Shown here: positions 9,045 through 28,074 of the stretch, in pieces
Position numbering within the stretch: the stretch's first letter is position 1
Layout of the letters: every line of letters starts with the position of its first letter
DNA from: Bacteroidota bacterium
GTDB lineage: Bacteria; Bacteroidota; Bacteroidia; JABDFU01
Reading direction: 5' to 3'
Length of the DNA stretch: 64,000 bases
NCBI GenBank assembly: GCA_013286655.1
Contig: JABDFG010000007.1
Span: 1-64,000 of the forward strand
The notes under the pieces: generated by a model
What the model was told of the DNA's origin: nothing
Databases searched by the model: none
Seen by the model: the letters and a program-made list of their open reading frames with translations, nothing else
Program-made: the position numbers and the translations under genes

Positions 9045-10421
9045 CTATTTAATGACGGCCAGTCTTCCATTTTTCAAGGTGATGGTATTACTCAACCGAA
9101 CGGCATAAAGTCCCTGAGTCAAATTGCTTGCATCAACGGATTCCCTGTCGTTGAGCGATTGATCCAACACAAGTTTTCCGTTTAAATCAAATACCTGAAG
9201 CCTTTCTATTTCTTTTGAATGAGTGGATCCCTGATCAACAGGGATTTCGATAAAAAAATGATCCGAACAAGGATTAGGAAAAATTTTCAATTCTTCACTT
9301 TTGTTTTTTAATTCGTTGATCCCCGCTGCTATATTGGTCAACATGCGAACACGGTAAAAATTACCATCTGCGATATACAAATTTTGAAAATAGGAATCTA
9401 GCGCAACGCCAAAGGGGGACATTTCAGTTTCAGTAGCAGGTACACTGTCAAGGTAACCACTGCCGCCACCTGCTATTGTTCTGATCCTTCCATCAAATGC
9501 ACTCACCTTACGAATCCTACCTTCTCCTTCATCTGCTATGTACAAATTTCCGCCGGGATCTACTGCAATATCCGTAACATCACTCAATCCAGCATGAGTA
9601 GCCAGACTATCGTCTCCACTATCATTAGCTTCGCCATTACCGGCTACTGTTGTGATTTTCCCATCGCTGATGGTTACCTCCCGGATTCTGTTATTGCCAT
9701 TATCTGCAATAAAAATATTACCCGAAACATCTAACTTAATGGCCAAAGGCAGATTAAGTTCGGCATTAACCGCTGGGCCTCCATCTCCACTATAACCACC
9801 GATTCCCAGATTACTACCCGCCACAGTAGTTATAATCCCAGTACTGGCTTTTACTTTTCGGATACAATTATTAAACTCATCTGCAATATAAATATTTCCG
9901 GCAGTATCCAGCGCAACACCCACAGGGTACTGCAAAGATGCGACAGTCGCAGGACCATTGTCCCCATTGTAAGCCGGAATTCCATTTCCAGCAATCGTAG
10001 ATATGATCCCTGTCCCTGTCGCAAAGGAAACCTTTCGGATACGGCTATTTCCAAAATCCGCAATGTAGATATTACCCGAATCATCCAGTGCGACCGCCGA
10101 GGGGTTAAACAAAGCGGCAGCTGTCGCAGCCCCGCCATCACCCCCATATCCTTGGGTAGTATCTCCTGCAATAGTAGTGATGATATTACTGCCAACCGCA
10201 ACTTTCCGGATTCGGTTGTTCAGAAAATCTGCAATATAAATGTTCCCGGCAGCATCCAGCGTCACGCCATAAGGATCGATCCCTGCGTTTAAGGCTGGTC
10301 CTCCATCTCCGCTCCAATCTGGTATACTATCTCCGGCAACAGTATAAATAAACTGTGCATGCAGGCGAAGAGAACCAAGAACAACAAGAACAACAAGAAG
10401 AATGGTTAACTTTTTAATCAT
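9045..10421 (-). CDS. Secreted NHL-repeat protein with T9SS type A sorting domain
   Basis: A 458-residue protein with a signal peptide (IKKLTILLVVLVVLGSLRLHAQ), then about six NHL beta-propeller blades repeating the patterns GVALD.AGNIYIAD..NNRIRKV and ITTVAGNG...GDGGPA, and finally about 80 residues of type A sorting domain (LKIFPNPCSDHFFIEIPV ... DLNGKLV ... LTQGLYAVRL ... GRLAVIK). The propeller suggests binding of protein or sugar ligands outside the cell; no catalytic residues are evident. The C-terminal domain is removed during T9SS export through a SprA-type pore, encoded in this window. The ligand is unknown. Confidence 0.88.
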   Translation of the reverse strand: MIKKLTILLVVLVVLGSLRLHAQFIYTVAGDSIPDWSGDGGPALNAGIDPYGVTLDAAGNIYIADFLNNRIRKVAVGSNIITTIAGDTTQGYGGDGGAATAAALFNPSAVALDDSGNIYIADFGNSRIRKVSFATGTGIISTIAGNGIPAYNGDNGPATVASLQYPVGVALDTAGNIYIADEFNNCIRKVKASTGIITTVAGSNLGIGGYSGDGGPAVNAELNLPLAIKLDVSGNIFIADNGNNRIREVTISDGKITTVAGNGEANDSGDDSLATHAGLSDVTDIAVDPGGNLYIADEGEGRIRKVSAFDGRIRTIAGGGSGYLDSVPATETEMSPFGVALDSYFQNLYIADGNFYRVRMLTNIAAGINELKNKSEELKIFPNPCSDHFFIEIPVDQGSTHSKEIERLQVFDLNGKLVLDQSLNDRESVDASNLTQGLYAVRLSNTITLKNGRLAVIK

Positions 10422-22008: not shown

Positions 22009-22521
22009 GCAAAATCAAAAACAGCAAAAGAATCACTGGCAATAACAACACATCATGTATTACCCAATGATACAAATAATCTTGGCAACCTTTTTGGAGG
22101 ACGCCTATTGGAATGGATGGACATCATTGCTTCCATATCAGCTCATCGGCATTGTAAACGTGTTGTAGTAACGGCTTCCGTCAATAATGTTGCCTTTGCC
22201 AAATCAATTACACATGGAAGTATCGTTACACTTGAAGCAAAAGTTTCCAGGTCTTTTAATTCCAGCATGGAAGTTTTTATTGATGTGTGGGTAGAAGACC
22301 CTGTCACAGGCGAAAGAAAAAAATCGAACGAAGCCATTTATACTTTTGTCGCAGTCGACCAGCATGGCGCACCTCTCGTTGTGCCCGAATTAATTCCTGA
22401 ATCAACAGAAGAAAAACTACGCTTTGAAGGAGCTCTGCGCCGAAAACAATTGAGTCTGATTCTGGCTGGAAAAATGAAACCGGAAGAAGCTACAGAGCTG
22501 AAGGCTTTATTTTTGAAATAA
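22006..22521 (+). CDS. Acyl-CoA thioesterase, hotdog fold (YciA/BFIT type)
   Basis: A 171-residue protein with the acyl-CoA hydrolase signature NNLGNLFGGRLLEWMDIIAS (near residues 23-42), with N, the GG pair and the acidic residue in family positions, and then VTASVNNVAFAKSITHGSIV. It hydrolyses acyl-CoA esters in the cytoplasm; chain-length preference cannot be read. Length is normal for a single hotdog domain plus a C-terminal helix. It shares a palindromic promoter with hemJ and its last 32 nt overlap the end of the convergent glycosyltransferase gene. Confidence 0.9.
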   Translation: MAKSKTAKESLAITTHHVLPNDTNNLGNLFGGRLLEWMDIIASISAHRHCKRVVVTASVNNVAFAKSITHGSIVTLEAKVSRSFNSSMEVFIDVWVEDPVTGERKKSNEAIYTFVAVDQHGAPLVVPELIPESTEEKLRFEGALRRKQLSLILAGKMKPEEATELKALFLK

Positions 22522-23482
22522 GTTCCGCTTCATTTATCTCCTTCATACATTTAAAGTGGCCTTTAGGGCATTCCTCGAATCCTATTTTTGAACAAGGCCG
22601 GCAGGGCAAATTCTTCACTTCGATTTTTGCACTTTGCACTTTGTGCTTTTCAGTATAATAAGGATACATTCCAAATTCCGGAACCGTATTTCCCCATACC
22701 GAAATAATTGGCTTTTGAAATGCTGCAGCTATATGCATCAGTCCCGTATCATGTGTAATTACCTTGTTCGCTTGATTTACCAGAGAAGCCGATTGATTCA
22801 GATTATATTTCCCACAGGCATTGTAAACTGTTGATCCGACAGTAGCCTCAATTTCCCTTCCATTTTCAACATCGTCTTTACCCCCAAGGAGTATAATTGG
22901 ACTGTTTATCTTTTTACATATAGAGATTATTTTATTCAGGGGTAAGCGTTTAGTCGCATGGGCTGCGCCGATAACAAAACCAGTATATCCCTGCCGGTGC
23001 GTTTCAGGAAGCGCAGCAATATTAATTTTATCCTTCTCCGGAATAAAATAATCTAACCCCATCCCGTCATTAGTAACTCCAAAATTCTTTACTGTTTCAA
23101 AATAACGATCGACGATGTGAACAGGTGGAAGCCTGTTGATTTTCAGATTAACGAGCAACCACTTTTCAATATTCAGTTTACGGAAAGAGAAAGACGGCCT
23201 ATTCAATTTTCGTTTTACCTGTAGTGTTCTCAGATTATGATGAAGGTCAATTATACAATCAAATTTTTCCTTCTTCAAAACATCCATTACTTCACTAAGA
23301 TCCTCATCAATGGAATGAATCTTATCCAGATAGGGATTGTTTTCTAAAATACTGCAAAAGCTCTTTTTTGTCAGATAATGAAGCTCCGCCTCCTTCAACT
23401 GCATTTTCGTACACCTTATAACAGGGGTGGTAAGAACAATATCTCCAATAGAACTAAAGCGTATAAATAGAATCTTTCTCAA
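22490..23482 (-). CDS. Family 9 glycosyltransferase (heptosyltransferase-like)
   Basis: A 330-residue GT-B enzyme. It starts from a TTG (RKILFIRFSSIGDIVLTTPV), the usual ADP-heptose:LPS heptosyltransferase opening, and carries the donor-site motif ITHDTGLMHIAAAFQKPIIS followed by WGNTVPEFGMYPYY. It probably adds a heptose-like sugar to the lipid A core or another surface glycan; the acceptor is not deducible. A perfect -7 box (TAACTTTG, 23490-23497 on the minus strand) ends 7 nt before the TTG, supporting that start. It stands alone, not in an LPS cluster. Confidence 0.88.
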   Translation of the reverse strand: MRKILFIRFSSIGDIVLTTPVIRCTKMQLKEAELHYLTKKSFCSILENNPYLDKIHSIDEDLSEVMDVLKKEKFDCIIDLHHNLRTLQVKRKLNRPSFSFRKLNIEKWLLVNLKINRLPPVHIVDRYFETVKNFGVTNDGMGLDYFIPEKDKINIAALPETHRQGYTGFVIGAAHATKRLPLNKIISICKKINSPIILLGGKDDVENGREIEATVGSTVYNACGKYNLNQSASLVNQANKVITHDTGLMHIAAAFQKPIISVWGNTVPEFGMYPYYTEKHKVQSAKIEVKNLPCRPCSKIGFEECPKGHFKCMKEINEAELISKIKPSAL

Positions 23483-23514
23483 TTGCAGGCAAAGTTAGGG
23501 CTTTTTAACTGTTG

Positions 23515-23544
23515 ATTGGGCAACTATTTATTGGCCTTGAAGTC
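23515..23544 (+). promoter_or_regulatory. ECF-type promoter ahead of the micropeptide gene
   Basis: ATTGGGCAACTATT (23515-23528) is followed by GTC at 23542-23544, giving AAC-N17-GTC, the spacing and cores of ECF sigma promoters (AAC-type -35, GTC-type -10). The same 14-mer lies ahead of the sigma factor gene. Confidence 0.6.
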
Positions 23545-23584
23545 TTATAAATAGGTCTGAAAATTTCACAAAAACCGAAATAAT

Positions 23585-23695
23585 ATGGAAACCATTAAAA
23601 AGAGTATTCATGAAAAGCTATCAGATATAGCAATCATTATCGTATTTGCAGCCATCCTTGCAATGGGTTTGTTCGCCTATATCGGAAAATTTTAA
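23585..23695 (+). CDS. 36-residue single-pass membrane peptide
   Basis: The ATG at 23585 opens METIKKSIHEKLSDIAIIIV and continues through one hydrophobic helix (about residues 15-32) to IGKF and a TAA. The N-terminal part is amphipathic and charged, so it probably sits in the cytoplasm. It has an ECF-like promoter of its own and lies 74 nt before the sigma factor gene, downstream of a matching promoter. I recognise no family. Being co-controlled, it may be a target or a modulator of the sigma/anti-sigma pair. Being short, it could be chance, but the clean start, helix and promoter argue for a gene. Confidence 0.6.
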   Translation: METIKKSIHEKLSDIAIIIVFAAILAMGLFAYIGKF

Positions 23696-23723
23696 CTACT
23701 TAAAAATCAAATATATACGTATA

Positions 23724-23752
23724 ATTGGGCAACTATTCAGGATTTATTAGTC
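23724..23752 (+). promoter_or_regulatory. ECF-type promoter ahead of the sigma factor (autoregulation)
   Basis: ATTGGGCAACTATT (23724-23737) followed by GTC at 23750-23752 gives AAC-N16-GTC; GTC runs into AAA, as in many ECF -10 boxes. The sigma ATG is 16 nt further on, so the 5' leader would be under 10 nt. This suggests the sigma factor transcribes its own operon. Confidence 0.62.
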
Positions 23753-23768
23753 AAATTAGTGAATAGCT

Positions 23769-24317
23769 ATGCTGGATGAATTACAATTAATAGAAGACTG
23801 CAAACAGGGAAGTAATTCTGCATTTGAAAAACTTTACGTAAAGTATGCGCCAAAAATGAAAGGAATTGCATACAGGTATGTCGGAGACAGAATGAAAGCA
23901 GAAGATATAGTCCACGACGCATTTATTAAGGTATATGAAAAAATAAGCTCCCTGAAAGATAATGCCGTTTTCGGGGGCTGGCTCAGAAGAATCGTTGTTA
24001 ACCAGGCACTTGACGCGCTTAAAAGCGAAAAAAAACTGAAAACAATATCAGAGGAATCCTTGCAATTTAATTCGGAGGAGCCCTCGGATGATAAAGGAAT
24101 TTACGAAAACATCAGTGCAAAACAACTGATGGATACCCTTGCATCATTACCAACTGGTTATAAAACAATATTTAATTTATATGTGGTGGATGGTTTTCAA
24201 CACAAAGAAATAGCTGAACAATTGGGAATTTCGGAAGGTACTTCAAAATCCCAACTTGCTAAAGCGAAAATTTATTTACGAAAATTATTAATTGAAAAAT
24301 GCGTATTAAATGATTGA
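23769..24317 (+). CDS. ECF RNA polymerase sigma factor
   Basis: A 182-residue sigma-70 family protein with only regions 2 and 4, the ECF pattern. Region 2 reads AFEKLYVKYAPKMKGIAYRY ... KAEDIVHDAFIKVYEKI, and region 4 has the helix-turn-helix FQHKEIAEQLGISEGTSKSQ followed by LAKAKIYLRKLL. It directs RNA polymerase to its regulon in response to an envelope signal. Its end overlaps the next gene by 8 nt, and that gene encodes a predicted anti-sigma/barrel fusion, the expected partner. The promoter upstream has an ECF form shared with the neighbouring micropeptide gene. Confidence 0.94.
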   Translation: MLDELQLIEDCKQGSNSAFEKLYVKYAPKMKGIAYRYVGDRMKAEDIVHDAFIKVYEKISSLKDNAVFGGWLRRIVVNQALDALKSEKKLKTISEESLQFNSEEPSDDKGIYENISAKQLMDTLASLPTGYKTIFNLYVVDGFQHKEIAEQLGISEGTSKSQLAKAKIYLRKLLIEKCVLND

Positions 24318-25923
24318 AGAAGAAGACATACTGGAATCCCTCTACAAAACCCACCTGGAGGATATTGAAATGCCTGTTTCCGATAGCCTTTGGAATCGCA
24401 TCAGAAAGACTATTGCATTGAATAGGTTAAGAAAAATTTTAGGAGCATTGGCATTGATAGGTGCGGTAATCGGATTGAGTTTGTTTTTTATTCATCCAGC
24501 TGATCTAAACAGAAACAGCTATGCTAAAGAAAATAAAACAAGGATCAGTTGGAAAAACAAACCGAATGGCAATGATCAGGAAGAAATAAGGGATACATAT
24601 CAGAAAAAGACATTAACGGTTACTAAAAAAAATAAAACAGATAGCCTTTGGGACAATATAACTTATATAGACAAAAAGGACATAAAAAATGTTGATCAGA
24701 AAAAAAAAATTTTAAAAAATGTAAATACGGAAATTAATAACTCAAAAAAAATAACTGAAATAGGGCTACCTTCTTCTCAACAGTCTAAACTTCCCGGGAA
24801 AAGAAGTCTCCATCCTTTGATAGTGGACAAAGGGCAGAAAAAATCAAATCAGAAAACGGAAATAGATATAAAACAAAAAAAATCCCTTCCGACCACCCAA
24901 AATGAAAATTCCCAAACGGAAAAAAACACTAAAAATAAAGAAGATTCGATAGCCAATCCTTTAAACAAAGAGATACTGTCAAACGGGAACAGTCCAAAAT
25001 CAGCCGAAAATAATACACCCTTGACGGATAGCATTCCAAAACTAAAAGACGGTAATCCGATAACCGGTCAAAACCAGGTTTTGAAAACAGACAGTAATCC
25101 GACAACCAGTCAAAACCAGGTTTTGAAGACAGATACCTTTCCAACACAACCCTCAGATTCCGCCGGAATGAATAGTTCCAATAGCCAAAAGCCGGATAGT
25201 ACGTTATCGGGAAATACACCTCCTCCTAAAGACAATGAAAATAAACTTAAGCTATTTATCAATGCAGAAAGCGGAGGTTTGATCCCTATTGTTAGCAGTT
25301 CAATTGCCGGTATCACTATGACAAACAATCCTACCGGGAATAAAGTTCAAAACTTGAGTTATGATGAACGAGTGGAGCTGGGATTTATGATCCAAAATAA
25401 GCTCAGCCTTAATATTGGCCTGGGGCTTTCACATTTTCAGGGAAACTATTCGCAGACAGTTAGCAATGCCATACAATGGAAAGACACGACAGGTAAAAAT
25501 CATACGACAACAGTTGTTATTAACTCAAAAGCCGGCTTTGATTGTCAGTTCTTAAATATTCCCGTTTTTGCAGAATACCTTTTTGGTTTAAGCCCCAAAT
25601 GGAACCTGGCACCCTCAATTGGAGTCATTTTAAATTATTTACTGAACGCTCAAAGTACCGCCTCTGCCTCCAGTAGTCAAAGTATACCTGGAGTTTCTCT
25701 TACAAATGCCACCAGTACAAACAGAACCACCGATTTTAAACCTCTTACTGCATCTACATTGACAGGACTCCGCTTAGAGTATATTTTGAATGAAAAATGG
25801 AAAATTTACCTATGTCCCAGTTATTCCTTTTTTATCGGAGATCTGGTTAAAGAAGGCAATATTTTAAAAATAACGCCTTCTGCCTTCAATGCAAATCTTG
25901 GAATAACCTATTTTTTCAGGTAA
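24310..25923 (+). CDS. Anti-sigma/outer-membrane beta-barrel fusion (Dma-like)
   Basis: A 537-residue protein in four parts. Residues 1-42 are cytoplasmic, acidic then basic (EEDILESLYKTHLEDIEMPV, DSLWNRIRKTI), like short anti-sigma segments. Residues 43-61 are one inner-membrane helix. About 65-310 is a low-complexity Lys/Asn/Ser/Thr linker with a 14-residue tandem repeat. About 312-537 is a small outer-membrane barrel of the PorT/OMP_b-brl type ending in the aromatic strand LGITYFFR. This layout matches the dual membrane-spanning anti-sigma factors (Dma) reported in Bacteroides, where one chain spans both membranes and holds its ECF sigma. Position and 8-nt overlap with the sigma gene support that. 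The signal sensed is unknown. Confidence 0.8.
   Translation: MIEEEDILESLYKTHLEDIEMPVSDSLWNRIRKTIALNRLRKILGALALIGAVIGLSLFFIHPADLNRNSYAKENKTRISWKNKPNGNDQEEIRDTYQKKTLTVTKKNKTDSLWDNITYIDKKDIKNVDQKKKILKNVNTEINNSKKITEIGLPSSQQSKLPGKRSLHPLIVDKGQKKSNQKTEIDIKQKKSLPTTQNENSQTEKNTKNKEDSIANPLNKEILSNGNSPKSAENNTPLTDSIPKLKDGNPITGQNQVLKTDSNPTTSQNQVLKTDTFPTQPSDSAGMNSSNSQKPDSTLSGNTPPPKDNENKLKLFINAESGGLIPIVSSSIAGITMTNNPTGNKVQNLSYDERVELGFMIQNKLSLNIGLGLSHFQGNYSQTVSNAIQWKDTTGKNHTTTVVINSKAGFDCQFLNIPVFAEYLFGLSPKWNLAPSIGVILNYLLNAQSTASASSSQSIPGVSLTNATSTNRTTDFKPLTASTLTGLRLEYILNEKWKIYLCPSYSFFIGDLVKEGNILKITPSAFNANLGITYFFR
25051..25134 (+). repeat. Two 42-bp tandem repeats in the linker of the barrel fusion
   Basis: Each copy encodes a 14-residue unit of the form [GS]NP[IT]T[GS]QNQVLKTD; copies span 25051-25092 and 25093-25134 with few mismatches. 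Being a multiple of 3, gain or loss of copies would change periplasmic linker length without a frameshift. Confidence 0.85.
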
Positions 25924-25959
25924 AATCAGGGGATCTTTTTGGCTAAATTAGCGCCACGA

Positions 25960-28074
25960 ATGAACAGCCGCTCCCAAACTTTCCTGGATACACCGATTGA
26001 ATACCTAAAGGGAGTCGGTCCTCAAAGAGCCGACCTTTTGAAAAAGGAGCTACAGGTCTTTACATTTTATGACCTGCTAACGCAATTCCCATTTCGTTAT
26101 GTTGATCGTACCCGGTTTTACAAAGTAAACGAAGTAAGCATTGACTATCCTTACGTTCAATTACGTGGTAAAATTAAATCAATGACAATGGCGGGGAAAC
26201 CACGAAACCAAAGACTGATTGCTAAATTTTACGACGAAAGTGGCACAATCGACTTACTCTGGTTTGCGGGCGCTAAATGGATGCTGGATAAATTAAAAGG
26301 CGAAAAAGAATTCATTGTATTTGGAAAAGCAACGAGTTTCAAGGGCCAAATCAATATTCCTCATCCGGAAATTGAAGAGGTAAGCGAAGAGAATACACGT
26401 TTAGCCAGTTCCCTCCAGGCTGTGTACAACAGCACCGAAAAACTCAAGAGTAAAGGACTTGACAGCAGAGGAATCTATAAGCTCATGCGCGTACTTGTTG
26501 CCAACATTCACAAAAATATACCTGAAACGATTTCAGACGAGCTGTTGGGTGAGTACAAATTAATGCAACGCGAACGGGCGTTCCAGACTATTCACCTGCC
26601 GGAAAACCCCGAAGCCTTAAGAAAAGCAGAATACCGGTTAAAATTCGAAGAATTGTTCTTTATCCAACTTCGTCTGCTTCGTTTAAAAGTGATCCGTCAG
26701 AAAAATTTCAAAGGTTTTGTATTCGGAAAAGTAGGAGAATACTTTAACACTTTTTATACCCAATACCTGCCATTCGATCTTACAGGAGCCCAAAAGCGTG
26801 TAATAAAGGAAATCCGTTACGACATGGGTTCGGGCAAGCAAATGAATCGTCTGTTACAGGGAGATGTAGGCAGTGGCAAAACATTGGTTGCATTGATGAC
26901 AATGTTAATAGCTCTGGACAATGGCTTTCAGGCATGTATTATTGCCCCGACTGAAATCCTCGCCGCACAGCATTATGAGTCCATCAGTAAAATGCTGGAA
27001 AAACTACCGATAAAAGTCGAATTGCTCACCGGCTCTACAAAAAAATCAAATCGAAAAATAGTGCATGAGCAACTACAAACGGGAACCTTGCACATATTGA
27101 TTGGTACGCATGCCTTAATGGAAGACGCCGTGCTTTTTAAAAATCTGGGGCTGATCGTAATTGACGAACAGCACCGCTTTGGCGTCGCTCAACGGGCACG
27201 TATGTGGAAAAAAAACACACAACCCCCACATGTATTGATTATGTCCGCTACTCCCATCCCCCGCACCCTAGCCATGACTTTATACGGAGACCTGGATGTA
27301 TCCATTATAGATGAATTACCTCCAGGACGAAAACCCATATCCACCTCCCACAAATTTGACTCCCAGCGCTTGCGTGTATTTGGTTTTATGAAAGAACAGA
27401 TCGCTATAGGTCGTCAGGTATATATTGTTTATCCCTTGATTGAAGAATCGGAAAAACTTGATTTAAAAAATCTGATGGATGGATATGAAAGTATTGTACG
27501 GGCATTTGCTCCTCCGGATTACCGGGTAAGCATTGTACACGGACAGATGAAGGCCGCAGACAAAAATTTTGAGATGCAGCGTTTTGTAAAGGGCGAAACG
27601 CAAATAATGGTGGCAACAACTGTCATTGAAGTAGGTGTGAATGTACCCAATGCAAGCGTCATGGTCATTGAAAATGCTGAGCGTTTTGGCCTTTCTCAAC
27701 TGCATCAATTACGGGGAAGGGTCGGGCGGGGAGCGGATAAAAGCTATTGCATCCTGATGACCTCCTTCAAACTGAGCGCCGATTCTAAAATACGGATCAA
27801 TACCATGGTTGGAAGTAACGACGGTTTTGAGATTGCCGAGGTGGATCTTAGACTTCGCGGTCCGGGAGACCTGTCAGGTACCCAGCAAAGCGGAGTCCTT
27901 GACCTGAAAATTTCGGACTTAGCCAAAGATGTACAAATAGTCCAATTGGCCAGAAGCTGCGCTTCACAAATTTTAGCAGAAGATCCCACACTGGAAAAAC
28001 CCTCCAACCAAAGGATTGCCCAACAATATGTCCAACTGAATCAAAATAAAACCAACTGGAGCAGAATAAGTTAA
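25960..28074 (+). CDS. recG: ATP-dependent DNA helicase RecG
   Basis: A 704-residue superfamily 2 helicase of standard RecG size. The wedge domain opens with LDTPIEYLKGVGPQRADLLK, then comes an OB fold (YVQLRGKIKSMTM), Walker A GDVGSGKT, the DEQH box (VIDEQHRFGVAQRARM), MSATPIPRTLAMTLYGDLDV, motif VI QLRGRVGRG and the C-terminal wedge-contacting region. It regresses stalled forks and branch-migrates junctions. An in-frame TTG at 25939 would add seven residues, but ATG 25960 is preferred because the TAAATTAGC just before it resembles a -7 box. Confidence 0.97.
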   Translation: MNSRSQTFLDTPIEYLKGVGPQRADLLKKELQVFTFYDLLTQFPFRYVDRTRFYKVNEVSIDYPYVQLRGKIKSMTMAGKPRNQRLIAKFYDESGTIDLLWFAGAKWMLDKLKGEKEFIVFGKATSFKGQINIPHPEIEEVSEENTRLASSLQAVYNSTEKLKSKGLDSRGIYKLMRVLVANIHKNIPETISDELLGEYKLMQRERAFQTIHLPENPEALRKAEYRLKFEELFFIQLRLLRLKVIRQKNFKGFVFGKVGEYFNTFYTQYLPFDLTGAQKRVIKEIRYDMGSGKQMNRLLQGDVGSGKTLVALMTMLIALDNGFQACIIAPTEILAAQHYESISKMLEKLPIKVELLTGSTKKSNRKIVHEQLQTGTLHILIGTHALMEDAVLFKNLGLIVIDEQHRFGVAQRARMWKKNTQPPHVLIMSATPIPRTLAMTLYGDLDVSIIDELPPGRKPISTSHKFDSQRLRVFGFMKEQIAIGRQVYIVYPLIEESEKLDLKNLMDGYESIVRAFAPPDYRVSIVHGQMKAADKNFEMQRFVKGETQIMVATTVIEVGVNVPNASVMVIENAERFGLSQLHQLRGRVGRGADKSYCILMTSFKLSADSKIRINTMVGSNDGFEIAEVDLRLRGPGDLSGTQQSGVLDLKISDLAKDVQIVQLARSCASQILAEDPTLEKPSNQRIAQQYVQLNQNKTNWSRIS

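Follow-up and report, generated by a model that had tools for sequence, protein, structure and literature searches.

Within a window of 64,000 nucleotides of contig JABDFG010000007.1 from a Bacteroidota genome, an autoregulated ECF sigma factor gene and the gene for a Dma-type anti-sigma factor form a cassette that, through replacement of a promoter, most probably captured a membrane micropeptide gene as a direct output, a reading to which we assign a probability of about 0.75. Promoters, coding status, protein layout, presence or absence of the cassette, and the promoter difference between the micropeptide and its relatives were all computed here. The features of the locus are as follows.

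22490 to 23482, minus strand: glycosyltransferase family 9 gene (PF01075), bordering the cassette on one side
23515 to 23544, plus strand: P1, the ECF promoter predicted for the micropeptide gene (-35 block TTGGGCAACTATT, N17 between AAC and the -10 GTC; top matrix score in the window)
23585 to 23695, plus strand: micropeptide of 36 residues, METIKKSIHEKLSDIAIIIVFAAILAMGLFAYIGKF (ORF call, three homologues within the genus, and pN clearly lower than pS)
23724 to 23752, plus strand: P2, an ECF promoter through which the sigma factor is predicted to control its own operon (14-mer identical to that of P1, N16, GTC)
23769 to 24317, plus strand: ECF sigma factor of 182 residues (PF04542 and PF08281; TIGR02985)
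24310 to 25923, plus strand: Dma-like anti-sigma factor of 537 residues (ORF call, Pfam, AlphaFold, and Foldseek)
25939 to 28074: recG-like gene, bordering the cassette on the other side; the name is our assumption from its sequence

A predicted, duplicated ECF promoter precedes the micropeptide and sigma genes

The initial annotation had reported the same 14-mer ahead of the micropeptide and sigma genes, followed in both cases by a GTC 16 to 17 nt after AAC, as in ECF promoters. Both observations were confirmed. Exact copies of the 14-mer ATTGGGCAACTATT are found at just two places in the window (23515 to 23528 and 23724 to 23737), all remaining matches having three mismatches. The geometry is AAC-N17-GTC in P1, ahead of the micropeptide gene (GTC at 23542 to 23544), and AAC-N16-GTC in P2, ahead of the sigma gene (GTC at 23750 to 23752). 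A position matrix trained on promoters of related sigma genes (70 sites, the window left out) independently ranked P1 first (16.2) and P2 second (14.1) on the two strands of the window, followed by a site scoring 11.8. The genome scan for AAC-N16/17-GTC with this -35 box, proposed with that annotation, was run as the strict pattern GGCAACTWTT-N12/13-GTC and detected P1 and P2 only in the whole assembly, versus one match for the reversed-pattern control. This assembly (2.62 Mb) is 72.6% complete, so that any regulon count is a minimum. The promoter proposed to be common to the sigma factor and the micropeptide is supported as a prediction by the duplicated 14-mer, the genome-wide unique pair, and the matrix, and the micropeptide gene is a well-supported predicted target of the sigma factor.

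Both promoters are weaker than is typical, with 16.2 and 14.1 against a median score of 22.7 in the training set, and their -10 elements reach a modest 5.9 and 3.8 bits. The spacers, at 17 and 16 nt, fall short of the 18 nt usual in the wider family (AAC-N18-RTC, 55 of 70 sites); two close relatives (G067 and G019) also have 16 nt. Sigma70-type promoters in the region did not clearly exceed shuffled controls. The stretch from the micropeptide gene to the sigma gene yielded no terminator; the sole terminator-like site of the region is on the minus strand, within the sigma gene. The cassette is known from one genome, which puts the conservation of both promoters beyond comparison.

The 14-bp repeat could also be a by-product of the insertion of the micropeptide segment, a direct repeat bracketing about 195 bp in which a single copy is a promoter. 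The presence of two exact copies on either side of the micropeptide gene and the restriction of the cassette to one genome fit such an event. Nonetheless, we consider it very unlikely, since both copies are followed by a GTC at promoter spacing, the core of the repeat is the family-wide -35 element, and the exact identity ends where the -35 region ends. A GTC falls within any three consecutive offsets at merely 2.3% of window positions.

Promoter consensus of related sigma genes and candidate targets

A set of 29 related sigma genes was drawn from 395 genomes of the class, and 26 of them have GCAAC upstream, compared to 3.1 expected from Markov-shuffled sequences and 2 on the opposite strand. 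Among 80 named relatives, 58 have it, against 6 for the opposite strand. From these regions we derived a putative family consensus, GCAAC-N18-RTC, with a subgroup variant, GGCAAC-N16/17-GTC. The literature that we consulted contained no published consensus for direct target promoters of Dma-type anti-sigma systems.

In G067, the same box is present at both ends of the intergenic region, for the sigma gene and for a divergent gene whose PKD protein product carries a T9SS sorting domain. In the genome of the window, a looser promoter pattern gave two additional matches. Its total number of matches equals that of the control (four), which makes the site at C4:20122 (L084:1498-2605) a candidate only, retained for its matrix score of 23.1. 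This site has an N17 spacer and GTCTTA as in P1, and lies 64 nt ahead of the gene for a T9SS-sorted protein of 346 residues, which is a likely candidate for a third target of the sigma factor. It could instead be the target of another ECF sigma factor of the same genome. The second looser match was dropped, being antisense within a long ORF.

No second promoter ahead of a transmembrane micropeptide gene was detected near about 90 related sigma loci. Second sites were found ahead of sizeable ORFs, several of which look lipoprotein-like or exported, as judged from their N termini. As a separate observation, second promoter copies in three named Bacteroidota (L128 at about 5617, L113 at about 839, and L146 at about 378; scores of 30.0, 22.1, and 21.6) are followed by a gene for a lipoprotein-like protein of 420 to 433 residues with the shared motif Y-x-A-x-V-P-[VI]-Y, possibly a common target of these sigma factors.

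The sigma factor is paired with a putative Dma-like anti-sigma factor

The sigma factor scored far over the Pfam cutoffs for Sigma70_r2 and Sigma70_r4_2 and just under that of TIGR02985 (117.7 versus 126.4 bits). The reported overlap of its gene with that of the 537-residue protein amounts to 8 nt.

The Dma-like layout attributed to the latter protein, including the C-terminal barrel, was recovered by structure prediction, Pfam, and Foldseek. In the AlphaFold model (eight-row alignment; N-terminal part of low confidence), helices span residues 2 to 16, 25 to 36, and 40 to 61. The last of these, the transmembrane helix, was modeled at low pLDDT, and relatives have a hydrophobic stretch at the same place. 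Residues 59 to 309 have pLDDT values below 50, indicating about 250 disordered residues and a tether at about 62 to 310. An eight-stranded barrel follows at residues 314 to 536 (pLDDT mostly 74 to 94), with the OmpA barrel as its best Foldseek match (E value of 3.2e-9) and a score of 28.5 bits for Pfam OMP_b-brl_2 (cutoff of 27).

The N-terminal two-helix domain is common to 74 other anti-sigma N termini adjoining related sigma factors (consensus NNIDELFRSKLENFEAPPSPGVWDKI). An ORF occupies this place in 67 named relatives, with a transmembrane stretch in 65 and a length of more than 330 residues in about half (34). The family probably has forms both with and without a barrel, because the shorter relatives are too short for the four-part layout. 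The 537-residue protein had no match in five congeners, four of which are incomplete.

Dma2 of Bacteroides thetaiotaomicron likewise consists of an N-terminal anti-sigma domain, a transmembrane helix, a disordered tether, and a C-terminal barrel (PMC13088901), and in both the Dma1/Das1 and Dma2/Das2 systems of that species the sigma gene adjoins an anti-sigma gene of four-part layout, as it does here. By layout, the pair is of the Dma kind; binding of the sigma factor and membership in group ECF21 are putative. Deletion of dma2 raises the expression of das2 (log2FC of 4.54) and of neighboring genes (2.5 to 6.0) (PMC13088901); the published neighbors of Dma2, BT_1555 to BT_1557, are annotated as DUF-domain or enzyme-like proteins. 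In those systems, sigma activity raises the sigma factor's own gene and its neighbors, an effect predicted here from the promoters; in contrast to Dma/Das, it is an upstream micropeptide gene that carries the predicted promoter of the sigma factor.

Class I transmembrane anti-sigma factors, as generally described, have a cytoplasmic part that holds the sigma factor, a single transmembrane helix, and an operon under the control of the sigma factor itself; the putative sigma-holding domain, the transmembrane helix, and the predicted autoregulation of the present system correspond to these. Where they have a short periplasmic domain, the protein studied here has a tether of great length that leads to a barrel of the outer-membrane type.

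The micropeptide belongs to a small genus-level family

The micropeptide consists of a short amphipathic basic N terminus followed by one transmembrane helix. The initial annotation had assigned it to no family, and indeed neither Pfam nor NCBIfam gave a match over cutoff. That assignment was nevertheless not upheld, since three more copies define a small genus-level family: one in the same genome (C10) and the others in congeners G001 and G002. The four share start, length, and core residues, and comparison of the window copy with the three relatives gave pN values of 0.23 to 0.45 and pS values of 0.60 to 0.87. On this comparative evidence, the micropeptide is a real gene, under purifying selection. 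Outside the genus, the class-wide search gave partial and weak matches only; no relative was confirmed by tblastn in public genome contigs, and plasmids gave none.

The relatives have a different setting. No sigma/anti-sigma pair lies beside any of the three in the stretches read, and no ECF site upstream of them reaches the scores of the window (best matrix scores of 11.0, 4.6, and none). The relatives in C10 and G002 are preceded by a TTAACA-N4-TTAAC repeat and a -24/-12 sigma54-like element; the relative in G001 has neither. The micropeptide gene of the window lacks both and has an ECF promoter in that place.

Next downstream of each of the three relatives is another small ORF, of the LSAKELQKIRHERR type. 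Members of this second-peptide family (L075 to L083) have 48 to 97 residues with a basic middle, include G000:C10:6119-6292 (minus strand), C17:2708-2875 (plus strand), and C8:18034-18183 (minus strand), and often end in WDLSGGLLGI; three members checked were in no Pfam or NCBIfam model. A TTAACA-N3..6-TTAAC direct repeat lies upstream of eight of nine second-peptide loci (0.03 expected), and several of the second-peptide genes are preceded by a gene for a transmembrane peptide of 35 to 41 residues. In its TTAACA-N4/5-TTAAC form, we take the repeat to resemble the Pho box of Bacillus subtilis. A third small-protein family of about 84 to 90 residues (LQRAMQLWNVVHQKSKIIFRSGNEIRSVDTPVWFVSEKYVCINAG; L079:1134-1391 and L013:7632-7904) is encoded upstream of these small-peptide genes in two genomes and had no convincing family match.

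Stress-induced small membrane proteins, such as MgrB and TisB of Escherichia coli, have about 30 to 50 residues, one transmembrane helix, and a stress regulator. From what is generally known of them, the micropeptide is alike in these three respects, but searches of Pfam and NCBIfam found no sequence relation. The micropeptide could be imagined as a small hydrophobic toxin of a type I toxin-antitoxin system, comparable to TisB or Ldr and induced by envelope stress: its 36 residues, basic N terminus, and single helix fit such toxins as commonly described, and the same intergenic place in congener G003 holds a PIN-domain toxin-like gene. We regard this as highly improbable. Rfam detected no antitoxin RNA, nor any other known RNA family, in positions 23300 to 26100, a search that an undescribed RNA would escape; what comes after the relatives is another coding gene, not a known antisense RNA, and the micropeptide has no plasmid match.

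Co-occurrence and origin of the cassette

The micropeptide had been viewed as part of the circuit. That it is a conserved part was not supported, as it is absent from about 100 related sigma loci, including every examined relative that keeps the sigma/anti-sigma pair, and its own relatives sit without a sigma factor; the conservation expected alongside the sigma/barrel pair was checked and fails.

In a rival reading, the micropeptide, once induced by the sigma factor, would modulate the circuit by feedback from within the inner membrane, with the anti-sigma factor or the sigma factor as its target, for example through an N-terminal helix that mimics the first sigma-binding helix of the anti-sigma factor. 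The micropeptide gene adjoins the sigma gene under the same predicted promoter, its segment ETIKKSIHEKLSDIAI aligns to the helix 1 consensus of the anti-sigma family (NNIDELFRSKLENFEA), with 36 of 1,000 shuffles scoring as high, and it outscores its three relatives against that consensus. However, the match is marginal, at about 0.04 in an uncorrected, post hoc comparison, amphipathic helices resemble one another, micropeptide relatives exist without the sigma factor, and related sigma/anti-sigma pairs exist without the micropeptide. Feedback modulation is therefore unlikely. Its most specific form is quite unlikely: a membrane-anchored mimic of the first sigma-binding helix, taken over from an unrelated regulon of small peptides through promoter replacement and produced solely while the sigma factor is active, that would prolong or cut off the response by acting in competition with or next to the anti-sigma factor.

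In congener G003 (97% complete), the glycosyltransferase and recG genes are collinear and the cassette is absent from the gap between them, which contains a PIN-domain gene and a 54-residue ORF (L175, G003:C73, reverse complement of about 9089 to 9611). Because the gap holds these genes in G003 and the sigma cassette in the genome of the window, it appears to be a variable cargo site. The sequence supports, for this one genome, the recruitment of the micropeptide gene under the promoter of the sigma factor as the new element of the locus.

Proposed mechanism

The proposed scheme is a switch responding to envelope stress, with the micropeptide as a direct output, in which binding of the sigma factor, its release by stress, and the effector role of the micropeptide are what we infer. 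At rest, the barrel would lie in the outer membrane and the tether would cross the periplasm to the helix spanning the inner membrane, with the sigma factor held by the cytoplasmic two-helix domain at the N terminus. Stress at the outer membrane would free the sigma factor to bind GGGCAAC...GTC, thereby increasing expression of its own operon from P2 and of the micropeptide from P1. Because no terminator was found between the two genes, P1 could also feed the sigma gene, its transcripts continuing downstream and strengthening the loop. The micropeptide itself would be an inner-membrane effector drawn from a small genus-level family, its predicted ECF promoter standing where two of three relatives have a TTAACA-repeat/sigma54-like promoter.

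Dma-type anti-sigma factors form a link between the outer membrane and transcription, and the consensus derived here would allow prediction of their regulons across the Bacteroidota as well as direct testing. For the micropeptide family, the locus provides a condition under which to look for the peptide. More generally, it suggests that a gene for a small membrane peptide can move between regulons by promoter replacement.
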